Shown piece by piece: positions 5,238 to 28,400 of a stretch of 32,923 bases of DNA. Each line of letters opens with the position of its first letter. Position 1 is the first letter of the stretch. The translations under genes were made by a program, and so were the position numbers. The notes under the pieces are model-generated. The model searched no databases. It worked only from the letters and a program-made list of their open reading frames with translations, and had not been told where the DNA came from. The stretch comes from Nocardiopsis sp. (GTDB lineage: Bacteria > Actinomycetota > Actinomycetes > Streptosporangiales > Streptosporangiaceae), in the NCBI GenBank assembly GCA_021154785.1, contig JAJKHX010000298.1, positions 1-32,923 of the forward strand, given 5' to 3'.

Positions 5238-6917
5238 GTGTCCGATTCCCGCCAGTTATGGTCCCCGCGGGCTGGCATTGTGGATGACGTGAAGGAGAAC
5301 GAGACGACCGCCCCGGGCGGGGTGGCGGCGCTGGACGACGAGCGGCGCTACCAGGCGGCGGCCAGCAAGGACCCCCGCTTCGACGGCGTGTTCTTCACCG
5401 GGGTGACCTCGACCGGTATCTACTGCCGGCCGTCCTGCCCGGCGATCACGCCGAAACGCGAGAACATGCGGTTCTACCGCAGCGCGGCCGCAGCCCAGGA
5501 GGCGGGCTTCCGGGCCTGTAAGCGGTGCCGCCCGGACGCGTCCCCCGGCTCGCCCGAGTGGAACATCCGGGCCGACGTAGTCGGGCGCGCCATGCGGCTG
5601 ATCGCCGACGGCGTGGTCGACCGGGACGGCGTCGAGGGCCTGGCCAGCAAGCTCGGCTACGAGCAGCGTCAGGTGCGCCGCCTGGTCACCGCCGAACTCG
5701 GCGCGGGCCCGCTGGCTATCGCCCGCGCGCAGCGGGCGCAGACCGCGCGTATCCTCACCGAGACCACCGCGCTGCCGCTGTCCGAGATCGCCTTCGCGGC
5801 CGGCTTCGCCAGCATCAGGCAGTTCAACGCGACCATCCGCGAGGTCTTCGCGGTGACGCCGACCGAGCTGCGCGAGGCGCGCGGAAGGCGGGCCGCGCCG
5901 ACCAGGCGGCTGCCTGCCCGGCCGGCCGGCGATCCGGCGGCGCCCGGGCTGATCCACTTGCGGCTGGCCTACCGGGCCCCCATCGACGGCGAGCGGATGC
6001 TCGGCTACCTGGCCGCCCGGGCCGTCCCCGGGGTGGAAGAGGTGCGGGACGGGTCCTACCGCCGGACAATCAGCCTGCCGAACGGGGTAGGCATCTTGTC
6101 CCTGGGCCCGCTCGTGTCCTCGTCCGGCGGGCGGCCCCACGGGGCGGATCCGGGTTACGTCGAGTGCGAGCTCCAGCTCGAGGACCTCCGCGACCTGACG
6201 GCCGCGGTCCAGCGCTGCCGGCGCCTGCTCGACCTGGACGCGGACCCCGAGGCCGTCACCGGCTACCTGGCCGCGGACCCCGTGCTGGGGCCGCTGGCCA
6301 CGGCCAACCCGGGACGGCGCTCGCCCGGCCACGTGGACGGGAACGAGCTGGCGCTGCGGGCCGTGCTCGGCCAGCAGGTGTCGGTGGCCGCGGCCCGGCG
6401 GCTCGGGGCCCGGCTGGTGGCCACCTACGGCAAGCCGCTGTCGCGGCCGGACGGGCCGCTGACGCACTGCTTCCCGGCCGCCGAGACGCTGGCGGCCGCC
6501 GACCCGGGCACGCTGCCGATGCCGCGCAGCCGCGCCCGGGCGCTGACCGGCCTGGCCGCCGCGCTGGCGGGGGGCGAGCTGTCGCTGGACCCGGGCGCCG
6601 ACCGGGAGCACGCCGCCGCGGCCCTGCTGGCGCTGCCGGGCATCGGGCCGTGGACCGTCTCCTACATCCGGATGCGGGCGCTCTCCGACCCGGACGCGTT
6701 CCTGCCGGCTGATGTCGGCGTGCTCGAGGCGCTGGCCAGACTGGGTGCCCCGCTTGGGCTAGCAGGGCCGGCTGGCACCGGACCGGCCGCGCGGGCCCGG
6801 GCGGCCCGGGCCGCGGCGGCGCTAGCGGAGCGGCTGGCGGAGAGCTGGCGGCCGTGGCGCTCGTACGCCGTCCACCACCTGTGGGCGTACCTCGAAAAAG
6901 AAAAGGATGCATCATGA
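5238..6917 (+). CDS. alkA: AdaA-AlkA fusion: methylphosphotriester-DNA methyltransferase/AraC HTH + 3-methyladenine DNA glycosylase
   Basis: Ada Zn domain (FFTGVTSTGIYCRPSCPAITPKRENMRFYRSAAAAQEAGFRACKRCRPD), AraC HTH (LPLSEIAFAAGFASIRQFNATIREVFAVTPTELR), HhH glycosylase (LRAVLGQQVSVAAARRLGARL..., LLALPGIGPWTVSYIRMRAL...DAFLPADVG). Start codon could be downstream. Confidence 0.95.
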   Translation: MSDSRQLWSPRAGIVDDVKENETTAPGGVAALDDERRYQAAASKDPRFDGVFFTGVTSTGIYCRPSCPAITPKRENMRFYRSAAAAQEAGFRACKRCRPDASPGSPEWNIRADVVGRAMRLIADGVVDRDGVEGLASKLGYEQRQVRRLVTAELGAGPLAIARAQRAQTARILTETTALPLSEIAFAAGFASIRQFNATIREVFAVTPTELREARGRRAAPTRRLPARPAGDPAAPGLIHLRLAYRAPIDGERMLGYLAARAVPGVEEVRDGSYRRTISLPNGVGILSLGPLVSSSGGRPHGADPGYVECELQLEDLRDLTAAVQRCRRLLDLDADPEAVTGYLAADPVLGPLATANPGRRSPGHVDGNELALRAVLGQQVSVAAARRLGARLVATYGKPLSRPDGPLTHCFPAAETLAAADPGTLPMPRSRARALTGLAAALAGGELSLDPGADREHAAAALLALPGIGPWTVSYIRMRALSDPDAFLPADVGVLEALARLGAPLGLAGPAGTGPAARARAARAAAALAERLAESWRPWRSYAVHHLWAYLEKEKDAS

Positions 6918-7444
6918 CCAGCCCGTTCGTGGCGACGGAACCGGACGCCCCGTGTCTGTACCACATCGTCAGCTCCCCCATCGGCAGGCTGCTGCTGCTC
7001 GGCGACGGGCACGCGCTGACCGGCCTGTGGATGATCGACGCCGAGCGGCACGTGTCCCGCGCGGTCGACGGGCTGACGTCCAGCCCGGAGTCCTTCCGCG
7101 AGGTCGAGGCGCAGCTCGAGGCGTACTTCGCCGGTGACCTGAAGGAGTTCACGGTGCCGCTGGCGCCGACCGGGTCGCCGTTCCAGCTGGCGGTCTGGAC
7201 CGAGCTGACCAAGATCCCGTACGGAAGCACGGTGACGTACGGCTCCATTGCCCTGGCGCTGGGCAAGCGGCTGGTCGCGTCGCGCGCGGTGGGCCTGGCC
7301 AACGGGTCCAACCCGATCTCGGTCATCGTGCCGTGCCACCGGGTCATCGGCAGCGACGGCAGCCTGACCGGGTACGGCGGCGGCCTGGAGCGCAAGGAGC
7401 TGCTCCTGAAGCTGGAAGGCGCGGGTCCGGTCACGCTGTTCTGA
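6914..7444 (+). CDS. ogt: Methylated-DNA--[protein]-cysteine S-methyltransferase
   Basis: ISVIVPCHRVIGSDGSLTGYGGGLERKELLLKLEGA; ATGA 4-bp overlap with upstream alkA stop. Confidence 0.96.
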   Translation: MTSPFVATEPDAPCLYHIVSSPIGRLLLLGDGHALTGLWMIDAERHVSRAVDGLTSSPESFREVEAQLEAYFAGDLKEFTVPLAPTGSPFQLAVWTELTKIPYGSTVTYGSIALALGKRLVASRAVGLANGSNPISVIVPCHRVIGSDGSLTGYGGGLERKELLLKLEGAGPVTLF

Positions 7445-23270: not shown

Positions 23271-25826
23271 TCACAGGCGCGGGTCGACGGGCTCGGATTC
23301 CAGGGCGAGGACGGCGAAGACGCACTCGTGCACCCGCCACAGCGGCTCGCCGCCGGCCACCCGGTCCAGGGCCTCGAGGCCGAGGGCGTACTCGCGCAGC
23401 GCCAGCGAGCGCTTGTGGGACAGGCCGCGCTGGCGCAGCCGGGTCAGGTTGGCCGGCTCGGTGTAGTCCGGGCCGTAGATGATCCGCAGGTACTCCCGGC
23501 CGCGCACCTTCAGGCCGGGCTGGGCCAGGCCCTGCGGTCCGCGGGTCAGGTTCGCGGCGGGCTTGACGACCATGCCCTCTCCCCCGGCGGCGGTCAGCTC
23601 CTCCCACCAGCGGGTCGCGGCGGCGACCGAGGCGGGGTCACCGGTGTCCGCCTCGACCCGGCGGGTGGCCGTGAAGAGCTCCGGGGCCGCGGCGGCGAGC
23701 CGGTCGGCCAGGGCGAGGTGCCACCGGTGCGGCCGGTCGTGGTAGACGGCACCCTCGGTGGCGAGCAGCTGGAACGGGGCGACGCACACCCCGGCCAGGT
23801 CGTCGGTGGCCCAGCAGTAGCGGGCGTAGGCGGCGGTGAACGCCTCGGCGTTGGCCAGCCGGGCCCGGGTCCGGTCCAGCAGGTCGCCGAGGCCGGGCAG
23901 GTCGCGGGACGACGCCTGGGTCAGGGCCGCGGCCGCGGCCGGGAGGGCGGCCAGCGCGGCCGCGCCCACCGCGGCGTACTGGTCCCGCAGCAGCGACCCG
24001 GCCTTGACGTTCCAGGGCAGGATCTCGGCGTCCAGCAGCAGCCAGGACGTGCCGAGCTCGTCGAACAGGCCGGCCTTCCCGGCCGCCGCGCGCGCCTGCT
24101 CTGCCAGGTGCGGGCCGGCCGGGCCGGGGAAGAACGGCCGGCCGGTCCTGGTCCAGGCCGCGCCCCCGCCGGAGGAGACACCGAAGCGAGCCCGCGCGTC
24201 GTCCTGCGACCGGCAGATCAGCAGCACGGCCCGGGAGCCCATGTGCTTCTCCTCGCACAGCACCGAGGCCACCCCGGCGGTGGCGTAGGCGCTGAATGCC
24301 TGCTCCGGGTGCTCCAGCAGGTCGTCGCGGGACGACGTGGCAACCGGGCTCATGGTCGGCGGCAGGTAAAGGAGCCAGCGCGGGTCGATCGCGAACCGGC
24401 TCATCACCTCGAGCGCGGCGGCGGCGTGCGCGTCGCGGACGCCGACCCGCGGCAGGTAAGCGGTCTCGATGACCCGGGAGCCGGACACGTCGGCGATGTC
24501 GAGCACGTCGGGCTCACGCCGCGCGACGCCGGCCGCGGGGGCGGATTCGGCGGGGAACGGCCGGGCCGGGGGGTGGTAGACACGGGCGGCGGGGACGGAA
24601 ACGGTACCCCGTTCGGGATAATTCAGGGCGGTCAGACGGCCACCGAAGACACAGCCGGTGTCCACGCACAGGGTGTTGTTCAGCCATTCCGCGGCCGGCA
24701 CGGGGGTATGGCCGTACGCCACGACGGCGCGGCCCCGGTACTCGGTGGCCCACGGGTAGCGGACCGGCAGGCCGTACTCATCGGTCTCGCCGGTGGTCTG
24801 GCCGTACAGGCAGAACTCGCGGACCCGGCCCGAGGCGCGGCCGTGATAAGGCTCGATCAGCCCGGCGTGGGCCACCACCAGGTTGCCTCCGTCGAACACG
24901 TAGTGGCTGATCAGGCCGTCGATGAACCGCTCGGCGGCGGCACGGAACTCCGGCGTCTCCGCCTCCAGCTGCTCCATCGAGGCGTCCAGGCCGTGGCTGC
25001 GCTTGACGTTCTTGCCGCGCAGCGCCTTGAGCAGCTTGACCTCGTGGTTGCCGGCCACGCAGAACGCGGTCCCGGCCGCCACCATGCCCATGACCAGGCG
25101 CAGCACGCCGGGCGTGTCGGGTCCCCGGTCGACCAGGTCGCCGACGAAGATCGCGCGCCGGCTGCCGGGGTGGCGGGCGTTCACCGGGCGCCCGGCCGCG
25201 TCCCGGCCGAGCTCGTAGCCCAGCGTGGTCAGCAGTTCTTCCAGCTCGGCGCGGCAGCCGTGCACGTCGCCGATGATGTCGAACGGGCCGGTCTCGTCCC
25301 GCTTGTCGGTGTACAGCCGGGTGCGGGTGATCGCGGCCGCGTCGACTTCCTCCTGGCTGTGCAGCACGTGCACGGTGCGGAACCCCTCGCGGCCAAGACC
25401 GCGCAGGCCGCGGCGGAGCTGGCCGCGCTGGCGGCGGAGCACGTGCGGGCCGAAGTCCCGGTCCGGGCGGCTTTTGTTCCGTTCCGCGCACAGGTCTTCC
25501 GGCAGGTCGAGCACGATCGCGGTCGGCAGCACGTCGTGCTCGCGGGCGAGGAGGACGAGGTCGCGGCGGGCTTCGGGCTGGACGTTGGTGGCGTCGATGA
25601 CGGTGAGGCGGCCGGCCTTGAGGCGCTGGCCGGCGATGAAGCTGAGCAGCTCGAACGCGGCCGGGGTGGCGGACTGGTCGTTCTCGTCGTCGGCCACCAT
25701 GCCGCGGCAGAAGTCCGAGGAGATCACCTCGGTCGGCTTGAAGTGCGCGCGGGCGAACGTGGACTTGCCCGAGCCGGTCACGCCGATCAGGACGACCAGG
25801 CTCAGCTCGGGGACACCGAGGTTCAT
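23271..25826 (-). CDS. pnkp: Bacterial polynucleotide kinase-phosphatase-ligase (Pnkp), RNA repair
   Basis: Kinase P-loop GVTGSGKST; metallophosphatase motifs GDVHGC, GDLVDRGPD, GNHE; ligase nucleotidyl-Lys motif CEEKHMGSRAV; ATG overlaps Hen1 TGA. Confidence 0.95.
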   Translation of the reverse strand: MNLGVPELSLVVLIGVTGSGKSTFARAHFKPTEVISSDFCRGMVADDENDQSATPAAFELLSFIAGQRLKAGRLTVIDATNVQPEARRDLVLLAREHDVLPTAIVLDLPEDLCAERNKSRPDRDFGPHVLRRQRGQLRRGLRGLGREGFRTVHVLHSQEEVDAAAITRTRLYTDKRDETGPFDIIGDVHGCRAELEELLTTLGYELGRDAAGRPVNARHPGSRRAIFVGDLVDRGPDTPGVLRLVMGMVAAGTAFCVAGNHEVKLLKALRGKNVKRSHGLDASMEQLEAETPEFRAAAERFIDGLISHYVFDGGNLVVAHAGLIEPYHGRASGRVREFCLYGQTTGETDEYGLPVRYPWATEYRGRAVVAYGHTPVPAAEWLNNTLCVDTGCVFGGRLTALNYPERGTVSVPAARVYHPPARPFPAESAPAAGVARREPDVLDIADVSGSRVIETAYLPRVGVRDAHAAAALEVMSRFAIDPRWLLYLPPTMSPVATSSRDDLLEHPEQAFSAYATAGVASVLCEEKHMGSRAVLLICRSQDDARARFGVSSGGGAAWTRTGRPFFPGPAGPHLAEQARAAAGKAGLFDELGTSWLLLDAEILPWNVKAGSLLRDQYAAVGAAALAALPAAAAALTQASSRDLPGLGDLLDRTRARLANAEAFTAAYARYCWATDDLAGVCVAPFQLLATEGAVYHDRPHRWHLALADRLAAAAPELFTATRRVEADTGDPASVAAATRWWEELTAAGGEGMVVKPAANLTRGPQGLAQPGLKVRGREYLRIIYGPDYTEPANLTRLRQRGLSHKRSLALREYALGLEALDRVAGGEPLWRVHECVFAVLALESEPVDPRL

Positions 25827-27220
25827 GCCGCCTCCTTCTCGAACACGGCCAGCTGGGTAGGCGGACCGTCGGCCGGGTCCTCCGGGCCGACCGGCAGGAA
25901 CCGGGCCTGGTAGCCGTAGCGCTGCCCGGCCTGCTCGGCCCAGGCGCGGAACTCGGCCCGGGTCCACTCGAAGCGGTGGTCCGGGTGCCGCGTCGCGCCG
26001 GCGGCCAGCGTGGCGAAGTGGGCGTTGTACTCGGCGTTGGGGGTGGTGACGACGACGGTGGCGGGCGCGGCCGCACCGAACACGACCCGCTCGAGCGCCG
26101 GGATCCGGTCCGGGTCCAGGTGCTCGATGACCTCCATCAGCACGGCGGCGTCCAGCCCGGCCAGCCTGCTGTCGCGGTAGGTGAGCGAGGACTGGAAGAT
26201 CGTCAGCCGCTCGCGCCGGGGTGCTGGCATCTGGTCGAGCCGCAGGTGGCGGGCGGCCAGCTGCAGGGCCCGGGCGGACACGTCGGTGGCGGTGACGTGC
26301 TCGAACCGCTGGTCCGCGAGCAGCTCCCTGGTCAGCGCGCCCGAGCCGCAGCCCAGGTCGCCAACGCGGCGGGCGCCGCGTTCGTGCAGCACGGCCACGA
26401 TGGCCGCGCGGCGCTGGACGGCCAGCGGCTTGCTCGTCTCGGCTTCCGCCGCCTCGTCCTCGGCCGGCACCGCGTTGTCCAGCTCGTCCGGCTCGGTCTC
26501 GTCGGCTTCGGCCAGCCGGGCCAGCGCGGACTGGGCGAGCCTTTTCTGGTGCGCCAGGTAACGGCGGGTGATGAGCTCCTTATCCGGGTGCCCGGCCAGC
26601 CAGCCGCCGCCGGCCCGGATCAGCTTGTCCACCTCGTCGGCCGCCACCCAGTAGTGCTTGGTGTCGTCGAGCACGGGCAGCAGCACGTACAGGTGGTTGA
26701 GCGCGTCGGCCAGCCGGACCTCGCCGGTCAGCCGCAGGTCCAGGTACGGGGAGTCGCCCCACTCGGCGGGCGTGAACGGCTCGGCCCGCGCGTCGACCTG
26801 CCAGCCGAGGGGCGCGAAGAGGCGGTCCGCCAGGGTCCGGCCGCCCCGGCAGCGCAGCGCGGGGACGTGCAGGGTGAGCGGGATGGACGCGGCGGCCAGC
26901 TCGGGCCGGGCATCGCAGCGGCCGGTGAGCGCGGTGCGGAAGGCCTCCTTGATCGCCACCGCGAGCAGGCTGGAGGCGGCGTAGGGCCGGTCGTTGACGT
27001 ACTGGGCCAGCTCGCCGCCGCCCTTACGGTCGCGGACCAGGGCGACCGGGTCGACCTCGAGGAGCAGCGCGGCCGTGCACCGGTCCGGTTCCGCCTCCGG
27101 ATAGAAGACGTGCGCCGTCCCCGCCGAGAGCGCGAACGACTGGACCCGGTCCGGGTGCTTATGCAGCAGGTAACCCAGGTCGGTCGCGGGCGCGCGGGTG
27201 GTCGTGATCGTCAGAAGCAC
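25823..27220 (-). CDS. hen1: 3'-terminal RNA ribose 2'-O-methyltransferase Hen1
   Basis: N-terminal Hen1 domain (MLLTITTTRAPATDLGYLLHKHPDRVQSFALSAGTAHVFYPEA), SAM motif VGDLGCGSGAL, metal-binding EVIEH and HPDHRFEWTRAEF; GTG start at 27220 inferred. Confidence 0.95.
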   Translation of the reverse strand: MLLTITTTRAPATDLGYLLHKHPDRVQSFALSAGTAHVFYPEAEPDRCTAALLLEVDPVALVRDRKGGGELAQYVNDRPYAASSLLAVAIKEAFRTALTGRCDARPELAAASIPLTLHVPALRCRGGRTLADRLFAPLGWQVDARAEPFTPAEWGDSPYLDLRLTGEVRLADALNHLYVLLPVLDDTKHYWVAADEVDKLIRAGGGWLAGHPDKELITRRYLAHQKRLAQSALARLAEADETEPDELDNAVPAEDEAAEAETSKPLAVQRRAAIVAVLHERGARRVGDLGCGSGALTRELLADQRFEHVTATDVSARALQLAARHLRLDQMPAPRRERLTIFQSSLTYRDSRLAGLDAAVLMEVIEHLDPDRIPALERVVFGAAAPATVVVTTPNAEYNAHFATLAAGATRHPDHRFEWTRAEFRAWAEQAGQRYGYQARFLPVGPEDPADGPPTQLAVFEKEAA

Positions 27221-27302
27221 ACGCCATTGTGACCGCGTCCGGCCGGCCAGATCAAAATCATTAATCCCGCACGAGTCGGCGCGTCCCGGGTATGACCCCT
27301 GC
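27221..27302. promoter_or_regulatory. 82-bp divergent promoter region between Hen1-Pnkp and the Y-family polymerase
   Basis: Head-to-head starts; reverse TTGATC-18 bp-CACAAT 5 nt before Hen1 GTG; forward TATGAC 6 nt before polymerase ATG. Confidence 0.5.
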
Positions 27303-28400
27303 ATGGGGTGGTGGGTGCTGCACGTGGATCTCGACCAGTTCATCGCGGCGGTCGAGGTACTGCGTCATCCCGAGCTGCGGGGGCGCCCGGTGGTGGTGGG
27401 CGGTGACGGCGACCCGACCAAGCGGGGCGTGGTGAGCACCGCGTCCTACGAGGCCAGGGAACACGGCGTGCATTCGGGGCTGCCGCTGCGCACGGCGGCC
27501 AAGCGGCTGCCCGACGCGGTGTTCCTGCCGGTGGACCGGGAGGCCTACGAGGAGATCTCGGAGACGGTGATGGCCGTGCTGCGGTCCTCCGGCGCGGTGG
27601 TGGAGGTGCTCGGCTGGGACGAGGCGTTCGTGGGCGTGGAGACGTCTGATCCGGAAGCGTTCGCGCGGTCGCTGGCGGCGCGGGTGCGGGCGGAGACGCG
27701 GCTGGACTGCACGGTGGGGATCGGGGAGAACAAGCTGCAGGCCAAGATCGCCACCGGGTTCGGCAAGCCGGCCGGGGTGTTCCGGCTGACGTTCGCTTCC
27801 TGGTTCTCCGTTTTGGGTGACCGGCCGGTGGACGCGCTGTGGGGCATCGGGGCCAAGACGGCGAAAAAGCTGGCCGGGCTGGGGATTCATACCGTTCGTG
27901 AGCTGGCGGCCGCGGACCCGGACGCGCTGGCTTCGGAGTTCGGGCCGATGACGGGGCCGTGGCTGGTGCTGCTGGCGTGCGTGCGGGGCGACGTCGAGGT
28001 GGACGCCTCGCCGTACGTGGCCAAGGCGCACGGGCGGGAGGAGACGTTCCAGCGGAACATCGCCGACTGGTCCCGGGTCCAGGCCGAGGTGGCACGGATC
28101 GCCGGGCTGCTGGCCGGGGACCTGGCGTCGGAGCCGAGGCCGGCGGTGCGGGTGGTGGTGAAGGTGAGGTACGCGCCGTTCGTCACGGAGAGCCACGGGG
28201 TGACGCTGGCCTCGCCGTCGTCCGACGCTGGGGTGATCGCTGTGGCCGCTTCTCAGGCGCTCGGGCGGTTCACCGGGCGGCGGCCGGTGCGGCTGCTCGG
28301 GGTGCGGGCGGAGTTCGGGTCCTCGTTACGGCTTTTCCCAGGGGGACGGGTCATAGGGTGGTCGCGCGTACCAAGACCATCGCGTCAGCCCTGGCTGTAG
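27303..28400 (+). CDS. Y-family DNA polymerase, DinB/Pol IV-like (DinB2-type)
   Basis: WVLHVDLDQFIAAVEVLRHPELRGRPVVVGGDGDPTKRGVVSTASYEAREHGVHSGLPLRTAAKRLPDAVFLPVDREAYEEIS...VEVLGWDEAFVGV...TVGIGENKLQAKIATGFGKPAG...LWGIGAKTAKKLAGLGIHTVREL. Confidence 0.93.
   Translation: MGWWVLHVDLDQFIAAVEVLRHPELRGRPVVVGGDGDPTKRGVVSTASYEAREHGVHSGLPLRTAAKRLPDAVFLPVDREAYEEISETVMAVLRSSGAVVEVLGWDEAFVGVETSDPEAFARSLAARVRAETRLDCTVGIGENKLQAKIATGFGKPAGVFRLTFASWFSVLGDRPVDALWGIGAKTAKKLAGLGIHTVRELAAADPDALASEFGPMTGPWLVLLACVRGDVEVDASPYVAKAHGREETFQRNIADWSRVQAEVARIAGLLAGDLASEPRPAVRVVVKVRYAPFVTESHGVTLASPSSDAGVIAVAASQALGRFTGRRPVRLLGVRAEFGSSLRLFPGGRVIGWSRVPRPSRQPWL

Follow-up and report, generated by a model that had tools for sequence, protein, structure and literature searches.

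A DinB2-type polymerase of Nocardiopsis with an isoleucine gate and a threonine filter: a candidate for intermediate sugar selectivity

The window, which is the whole stretch of 32,923 nucleotides of Nocardiopsis sp. analysed here, encodes a Y-family DNA polymerase of the DinP/DinB2 group that combines an aliphatic steric gate (Ile14) with a threonine at the position of the proposed polar filter (Thr46). Judged from these residues and from its intact catalytic core, the protein would be a competent translesion or gap-filling polymerase of intermediate sugar selectivity, a reading to which a probability of about 0.6 is given, and its permissiveness for ribonucleotides is probably weaker than that of Mycobacterium smegmatis DinB2. 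The worthwhile outcome is a testable split of gate and filter residues across the DinB2 group, and not the isoleucine gate itself. The features of the gene in window coordinates are:

27303-28400, forward strand: dinB2/dinP-type Y-family DNA polymerase, 365 aa (NF002883, PF00817 and PF11799, PDB relatives)
27327-27329, forward strand: codon of Asp9, the first metal-binding Asp, kept in 229/230 relatives and aligned with E. coli Asp8
27342-27344, forward strand: codon of Ile14, the steric gate, equivalent in the alignments to Leu14 (M. smegmatis DinB2) and Phe13 (E. coli Pol IV)
27438-27440, forward strand: codon of Thr46 at the 'polar filter' position, where E. coli Pol IV has Thr43 and M. smegmatis DinB2 has Cys47
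27618-27623, forward strand: codons of Asp106-Glu107 in the GWDEA motif, kept in 229/230 relatives

Identity and integrity of the polymerase

The open reading frame is complete, with 0 internal stops, and its product starts MGWWVLHVDLDQFIAAVEV. In profile searches it reached 522 bits against NF002883 (PRK03352), for which the cut-off is 330, so that the pattern is not due to chance; both the PF00817 and PF11799 domains were matched, and the other Pol IV models scored below their own cut-offs. The top PDB relatives in a sequence search were the entries 6jum, 6jun, 4dez (E 3e-103) and 6juo, all of them M. smegmatis DinB2 (MsDpo4). In the tree, the protein falls inside the actinobacterial DinB2 radiation, in a 12-row clade (100* support) amid the DinB2 of Streptosporangiaceae and other Actinomycetota. 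Its place in the DinP/DinB2 group, as anticipated in the initial annotation made from the DNA letters, is secure, and the group itself is conserved over many genera.

The catalytic Asp9, Asp106 and Glu107 are all intact in the alignment, the last two as the acidic pair within LGWDEAF. The replacement of the usual SxDEA by this motif had been pointed out in the initial annotation; it is real, yet it reads as the signature of the DinB2 group and no oddity, with Trp105 of GWDEA present in 227/230 DinB2-like rows and Asp106/Glu107 in 229/230. Prediction of the structure from the single sequence gave a pLDDT of 37 only, and the model used here was obtained from a 51-row alignment (mean pLDDT 89, pTM 0.77). 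Its four best PDB matches are the MsDpo4 complexes 6jum, 6jun, 6juo and 6jul, with TM 0.88-0.89 and rmsd 1.8-2.0. The M. smegmatis enzyme (4dez, 6jul) thus shares with the window DinB2 the NF002883 group, an identity of about 51% (structure comparison), the aliphatic gate, GWDEA and the fold, and differs in having Leu instead of Ile at the gate and Cys47 instead of Thr46. E. coli DinB/Pol IV, with only 31% identity, shares the Thr at the filter, the catalytic core and the fold, but it has the aromatic gate Phe13.

Most DinB2 relatives end shortly past RLLGVRAEF, and residues ~341-365 of the window protein form a non-conserved tail with pLDDT <50 in the model; the stop of the gene overlaps a convergent gene at 28385 by ~16 bases. 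DinP of M. tuberculosis has been described as a polymerase core without any additional C-terminal domain or motif (PMC6511836). A C-terminal beta-clamp motif was considered and rejected: the tail reads SSLRLFPG, a weak lookalike that is absent from the relatives, and no clamp-like pattern was seen in the tails of 207 of them. A mobile origin was likewise rejected, as the group has no phage copy (best phage matches 32-35% identity), and in the plasmid collection DinB2 occurs in 3 records only, 2 of them chromosome-sized.

The steric gate

Ile14 aligns with Leu14 of the wild-type M. smegmatis enzyme (4dez) with no gaps around the gate, with Tyr in 6jun, a gate mutant, and, in a pairwise alignment, with Phe13 of E. 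coli Pol IV. Both the assignment of Ile14 to the gate and that of Leu to the gate of M. smegmatis DinB2, as given in the initial annotation, are therefore correct. Neither the alignments nor the predicted model, which fits the MsDpo4 complexes best, give any hint that an aromatic residue has moved into the gate position.

A survey drawn from named genomes, from the relatives of the window, from its family and class and from fetched loci resulted, once duplicates were removed, in 230 distinct DinB2-like proteins. Isoleucine is the most frequent gate among them (141), followed by Leu (60), Val (17), Gln (10) and Met (1), one row being uncovered at this position. Trees were inferred after masking both the gate and the filter column; they require at least 33 (FastTree) or at least 34 (IQ-TREE LG+G4) changes of the gate residue, and the 12-row clade of the window holds Ile as well as Leu gates. 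Because of these many changes, and of the mixture within a single clade, the exact aliphatic residue at the gate is evolutionarily loose. An isoleucine gate is thus a natural variant of the aliphatic class, as had been proposed, and an ordinary state for the group. The finding is not new, since gates of the Ile, Leu and Val types have been on record for actinobacterial DinB2 since 2014. In that year Ordonez founded the DinB2 clade on the M. smegmatis enzyme with its Leu14 and described Ile gates for nine species of actinobacteria, from Amycolatopsis, Kribbella, Catenulispora, Arthrobacter and other genera, and Val gates for two (PMC4176160). These Ile- and Val-gate proteins share the gate state of the window DinB2 and no important difference from it was found; the relatives from Amycolatopsis, Catenulispora and Arthrobacter in the present survey are Ile/Thr.

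The polar filter

The filter segment of the window DinB2 reads VVSTASYEAR, and its Thr46 falls on Thr43 in the E. coli Pol IV segment RGVISTANYPAR; that polymerase is known to have the polar filter (PMC11253446). The same segment is VVTCASYEAR in 4dez (Cys47) and VVTTASYEAR in 6jum, whose Thr, by comparison with 4dez, would be engineered. This variant, with a Leu gate and a Thr filter, can be regarded as a solved analogue of the natural combination in the window, from which it differs in its Leu instead of Ile gate and, presumably, in not occurring in nature. Two sugar-sensing positions distinguish M. smegmatis DinB2 from Pol IV, the gate (Leu14) and the filter (Cys47), and the use of ribonucleotides by this enzyme has been credited to the gate and the missing filter together (PMC10159617). 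The missing filter of the Cys47 type is a feature that the window DinB2, with its Thr46, does not have.

The filter residue in the survey is Thr in 200 proteins, Cys in 26, Ala in 2 and Gly in 1 (n=230), and this position shows only 3 changes on either tree (FastTree, IQ-TREE). One branch (100* support) sets all 26 Cys-filter proteins apart from the clade of the window, and all of them come from one search group (f6), which is taken as the mycobacterial/Nocardia family because its Gln-gate sequences match Nocardia farcinica (L297). In terms of gate/filter pairs (n=230), I/T is found in 140 proteins, L/T in 42, V/T in 17, L/C in 16 and Q/C in 10, together with the rare L/A (2), I/G (1) and M/T (1). 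Most DinB2 proteins hence carry an aliphatic gate with Thr, and the loss of both the aromatic gate and the Thr filter is confined to the mycobacterial/Nocardia branch. Since the filter is Thr in 200/230 proteins and Cys marks one mycobacterial/Nocardia clade, the characterised M. smegmatis enzyme is atypical of the DinB2 group, and the statements in the literature that the whole group is ribonucleotide-adept rest on this atypical Cys branch. The natural contrasts of one or two residues (I/T, L/T, V/T, L/C, Q/C) would show which residue sets the sugar choice, which is the point of disagreement between the polar-filter and steric-sensor models.

Some further variants were observed in the survey. 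The Gln gate combined with a Cys filter defines a branch of mycobacterial/Nocardia type (L245, L253, L255, L256, L278-L282 and L284; HVDLDQFQAAVE), and the protein of Nocardia farcinica (L297, 3001-4050), which the Gln-gate sequences of f6 match, reads WLLHVDLDQFQAAVEF...VVTCASYPAR. The Gln gate is absent from the Leu, Ile and Val gates of the published survey (PMC4176160), no mention of it was found in the DinB2 literature searched, and it adds a further gate state to that list. Two outliers on long branches are the DinB2-like protein of L276 (G218), which has a Met gate and reads HIDLDFFMAAVE and GLDEAF, and that of L275 (G068), which has a Gly filter. In a Trebonia-like DinB2 (L289 7519-8505 / L005 5008-5994), motif I (HVDLNQFIAAVE) has Asn instead of its second Asp, which is the non-catalytic one.

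Tolerance to ribonucleotides

The initial annotation held that the enzyme should be rNTP-permissive. The part of this expectation that stands is the aliphatic gate; the part that does not is the equivalence with M. smegmatis DinB2, as Thr46 is kept where the latter has Cys47. An aliphatic Ile14 would make no aromatic clash with the incoming 2'-OH, whereas Thr46 should, like the Thr of E. coli Pol IV, keep the incoming nucleotide close to the protein. Because Ile14 would give no clash while the Thr46 filter is present, the rNTP tolerance expected for the window DinB2 would lie above that of a DinB1 with an aromatic gate and clearly below that of M. smegmatis DinB2 with Leu14 and Cys47. The change of Cys47 to Thr in MsDpo4 (M. 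smegmatis DinB2), in work by Johnson dated to 2019, reportedly cut rNTP insertion strongly. If this effect holds, the window DinB2 would be a natural analogue of the C47T variant and not of the wild-type M. smegmatis enzyme. No kinetics of any DinB2 with an Ile gate and a Thr filter were found in the literature. Likewise, we know of no assayed member among the Ile- and Val-gate actinobacterial proteins listed in 2014. What is directly observed for the window DinB2 is the protein with its group, both residues and their distribution, and the intact catalytic core; its kinetics and cellular role are inferred.

Confidence in an intermediate selectivity is moderate, because the filter model is disputed (in re-examined structures, few of the proposed hydrogen bonds meet geometric criteria, and steric sensing is favoured; PMC10639073), because human Rev1 selects sugars poorly although both gate and filter are present (PMC9130138), and because the change F23L alone conferred vigorous RNA synthesis on M. 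smegmatis DinB1 (PMC4176160). An effect of the filter on the window DinB2 is plausible in its direction.

The gain of strong RNA polymerase activity by DinB1 F23L suggests that the gate may dominate sugar choice. It also favours the alternative that the aliphatic gate alone decides, in which case the window DinB2 would be as rNTP-permissive as M. smegmatis DinB2 and would lay down ribo-patches when dNTPs are short. The M. smegmatis enzyme itself, with a dNTP/rNTP ratio of ~3-6 fold in kpol, loses its RNA polymerase activity with L14F and keeps it with L14A (PMC4176160); an RNase HII is encoded in the genome of the window; and, according to a survey from 2026, the DinP/DinB2 group is found only in Actinobacteria and has a natural aptitude for inserting ribonucleotides (PMC12926913). 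However, this last statement cites only the 2014 study of M. smegmatis, an enzyme of the atypical Cys branch, and Thr46 restores the filter whose loss has been credited with part of the rNTP use (PMC10159617), so full permissiveness is a tentative reading that we consider rather unlikely. A degenerate or inactive paralogue of DinB is a very improbable reading of the protein: inactive Y-family groups do exist in actinobacteria, such as scDinB2-like (PMC6511836), and the tail past residue 340 is not conserved, but the protein retains Asp9, Asp106 and Glu107, its frame is full-length, the group is conserved over many genera, and scDinB2-like is a different group under the same name.

The Hen1-Pnkp cassette beside dinB2

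The Hen1-Pnkp bacterial RNA-repair cassette lies at 23271-27220 on the reverse strand, head-to-head with dinB2:

25823-27220, reverse strand: hen1, 3'-terminal RNA ribose 2'-O-methyltransferase (TIGR04074 694 bits, cut-off 340; PF12623), its start placed by the PF12623 match
23271-25826, reverse strand: pnkp, polynucleotide kinase-phosphatase-ligase of this cassette (TIGR04075 1368 bits, cut-off 750)
27221-27302, no strand: 82 bp of intergenic space that separate the starts of the divergently oriented hen1 and dinB2

No sigma-70-like promoter or close LexA-box match was found in this space, and an SOS or sigma-70 site ahead of dinB2 was rejected.

This arrangement raises the idea of DinB2 as a functional partner of Hen1-Pnkp, for example as the enzyme that closes gaps at RNA or RNA/DNA ends with ribonucleotides ahead of the sealing step, and both cassette proteins are identified with high scores. 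The head-to-head order occurs in six genomes of three genera (that of the window, G000, and G014, G358, G361, G362 and G365), with about 82-131 bp between dinB2 and hen1 in four of them; the DinB2 of the other five are 64-73% identical to that of the window, and a seventh genome (G364) has dinB2 and the cassette genes at contig edges in a compatible arrangement. In one genus (g89), the trio of dinB2, hen1 and pnkp is kept amid mostly different flanking genes, which leaves a small residual chance of a functional link. However, all the genomes with the linkage fall inside the 12-row DinB2 clade of the window, and outside it Hen1 or Pnkp was found near DinB2 in 0/149 evaluable loci (at least 3 kb on each side), although Hen1 is present in 298/343 and DinB2 in only 129/343 genomes of the family. 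The figure of 0/149 exaggerates the contrast, as many of the genomes behind it may have no cassette at all. In the same clade, linkage of DinB2 to a DUF2461 gene is about as frequent (7/12), so the linkage of Hen1 is not exceptional. Moreover, a genome of the same genus (G001, DinB2 84% identical; L294) still has DinB2, flanked by part of the outer neighbours of the window locus (DUF4230/FUSC genes and an SDR gene), with hen1 and pnkp gone and no Hen1 found genome-wide. No paper linking DinB2 to Hen1-Pnkp was found.

Because the linkage is limited to part of one clade, DUF2461 is about as common and G001 lacks the cassette, the pairing is most simply regarded as clade-level local synteny and not as a partnership, which failed both the family-wide linkage test and the DUF2461 synteny control and has very little chance of being right. 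Hardly more credible is a scenario in which a Streptosporangiaceae/Trebonia-like lineage would have recruited a ribose-tolerant DinB2 into the Hen1-Pnkp module to extend or fill RNA or RNA-DNA ends, with the shared region of 82-131 bp driving both; if true, DinB2 would extend the ends that Pnkp heals and seals and that Hen1 protects.

Other neighbourhoods and genome context

Outside the clade of the window, the neighbours of DinB2 are lineage-specific; no neighbour recurring across the whole group was found among the loci compared, and a recurrent functional neighbour was rejected, as only lineage-specific synteny was seen. The Cys-filter loci of mycobacterial type (L228-L281) have a TetR gene directly upstream (median 18 bp), and nrdI with an apparent nrdE, named from its sequence, about 2 kb away; these neighbours are absent from the window locus. 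The presence of nrdI/nrdE (class Ib ribonucleotide reductase) near Cys-filter DinB2 may connect the supply of dNTPs with a ribose-tolerant polymerase.

The genome of the window encodes a second Y-family polymerase, which is DinB1-like and has a canonical Tyr gate (L001). Together with the RNase HII, it also encodes two Ku proteins, so that both gap-filling at breaks and the removal of embedded ribonucleotides would be possible in this organism, which is background to the window DinB2 and no proof of its function. In another part of the window, an Ada-type zinc/HTH plus AlkA fusion (5238-6917, forward strand) overlaps an O6-methylguanine-DNA methyltransferase gene (6854-7444, forward strand), the two forming a compact alkylation-repair pair.
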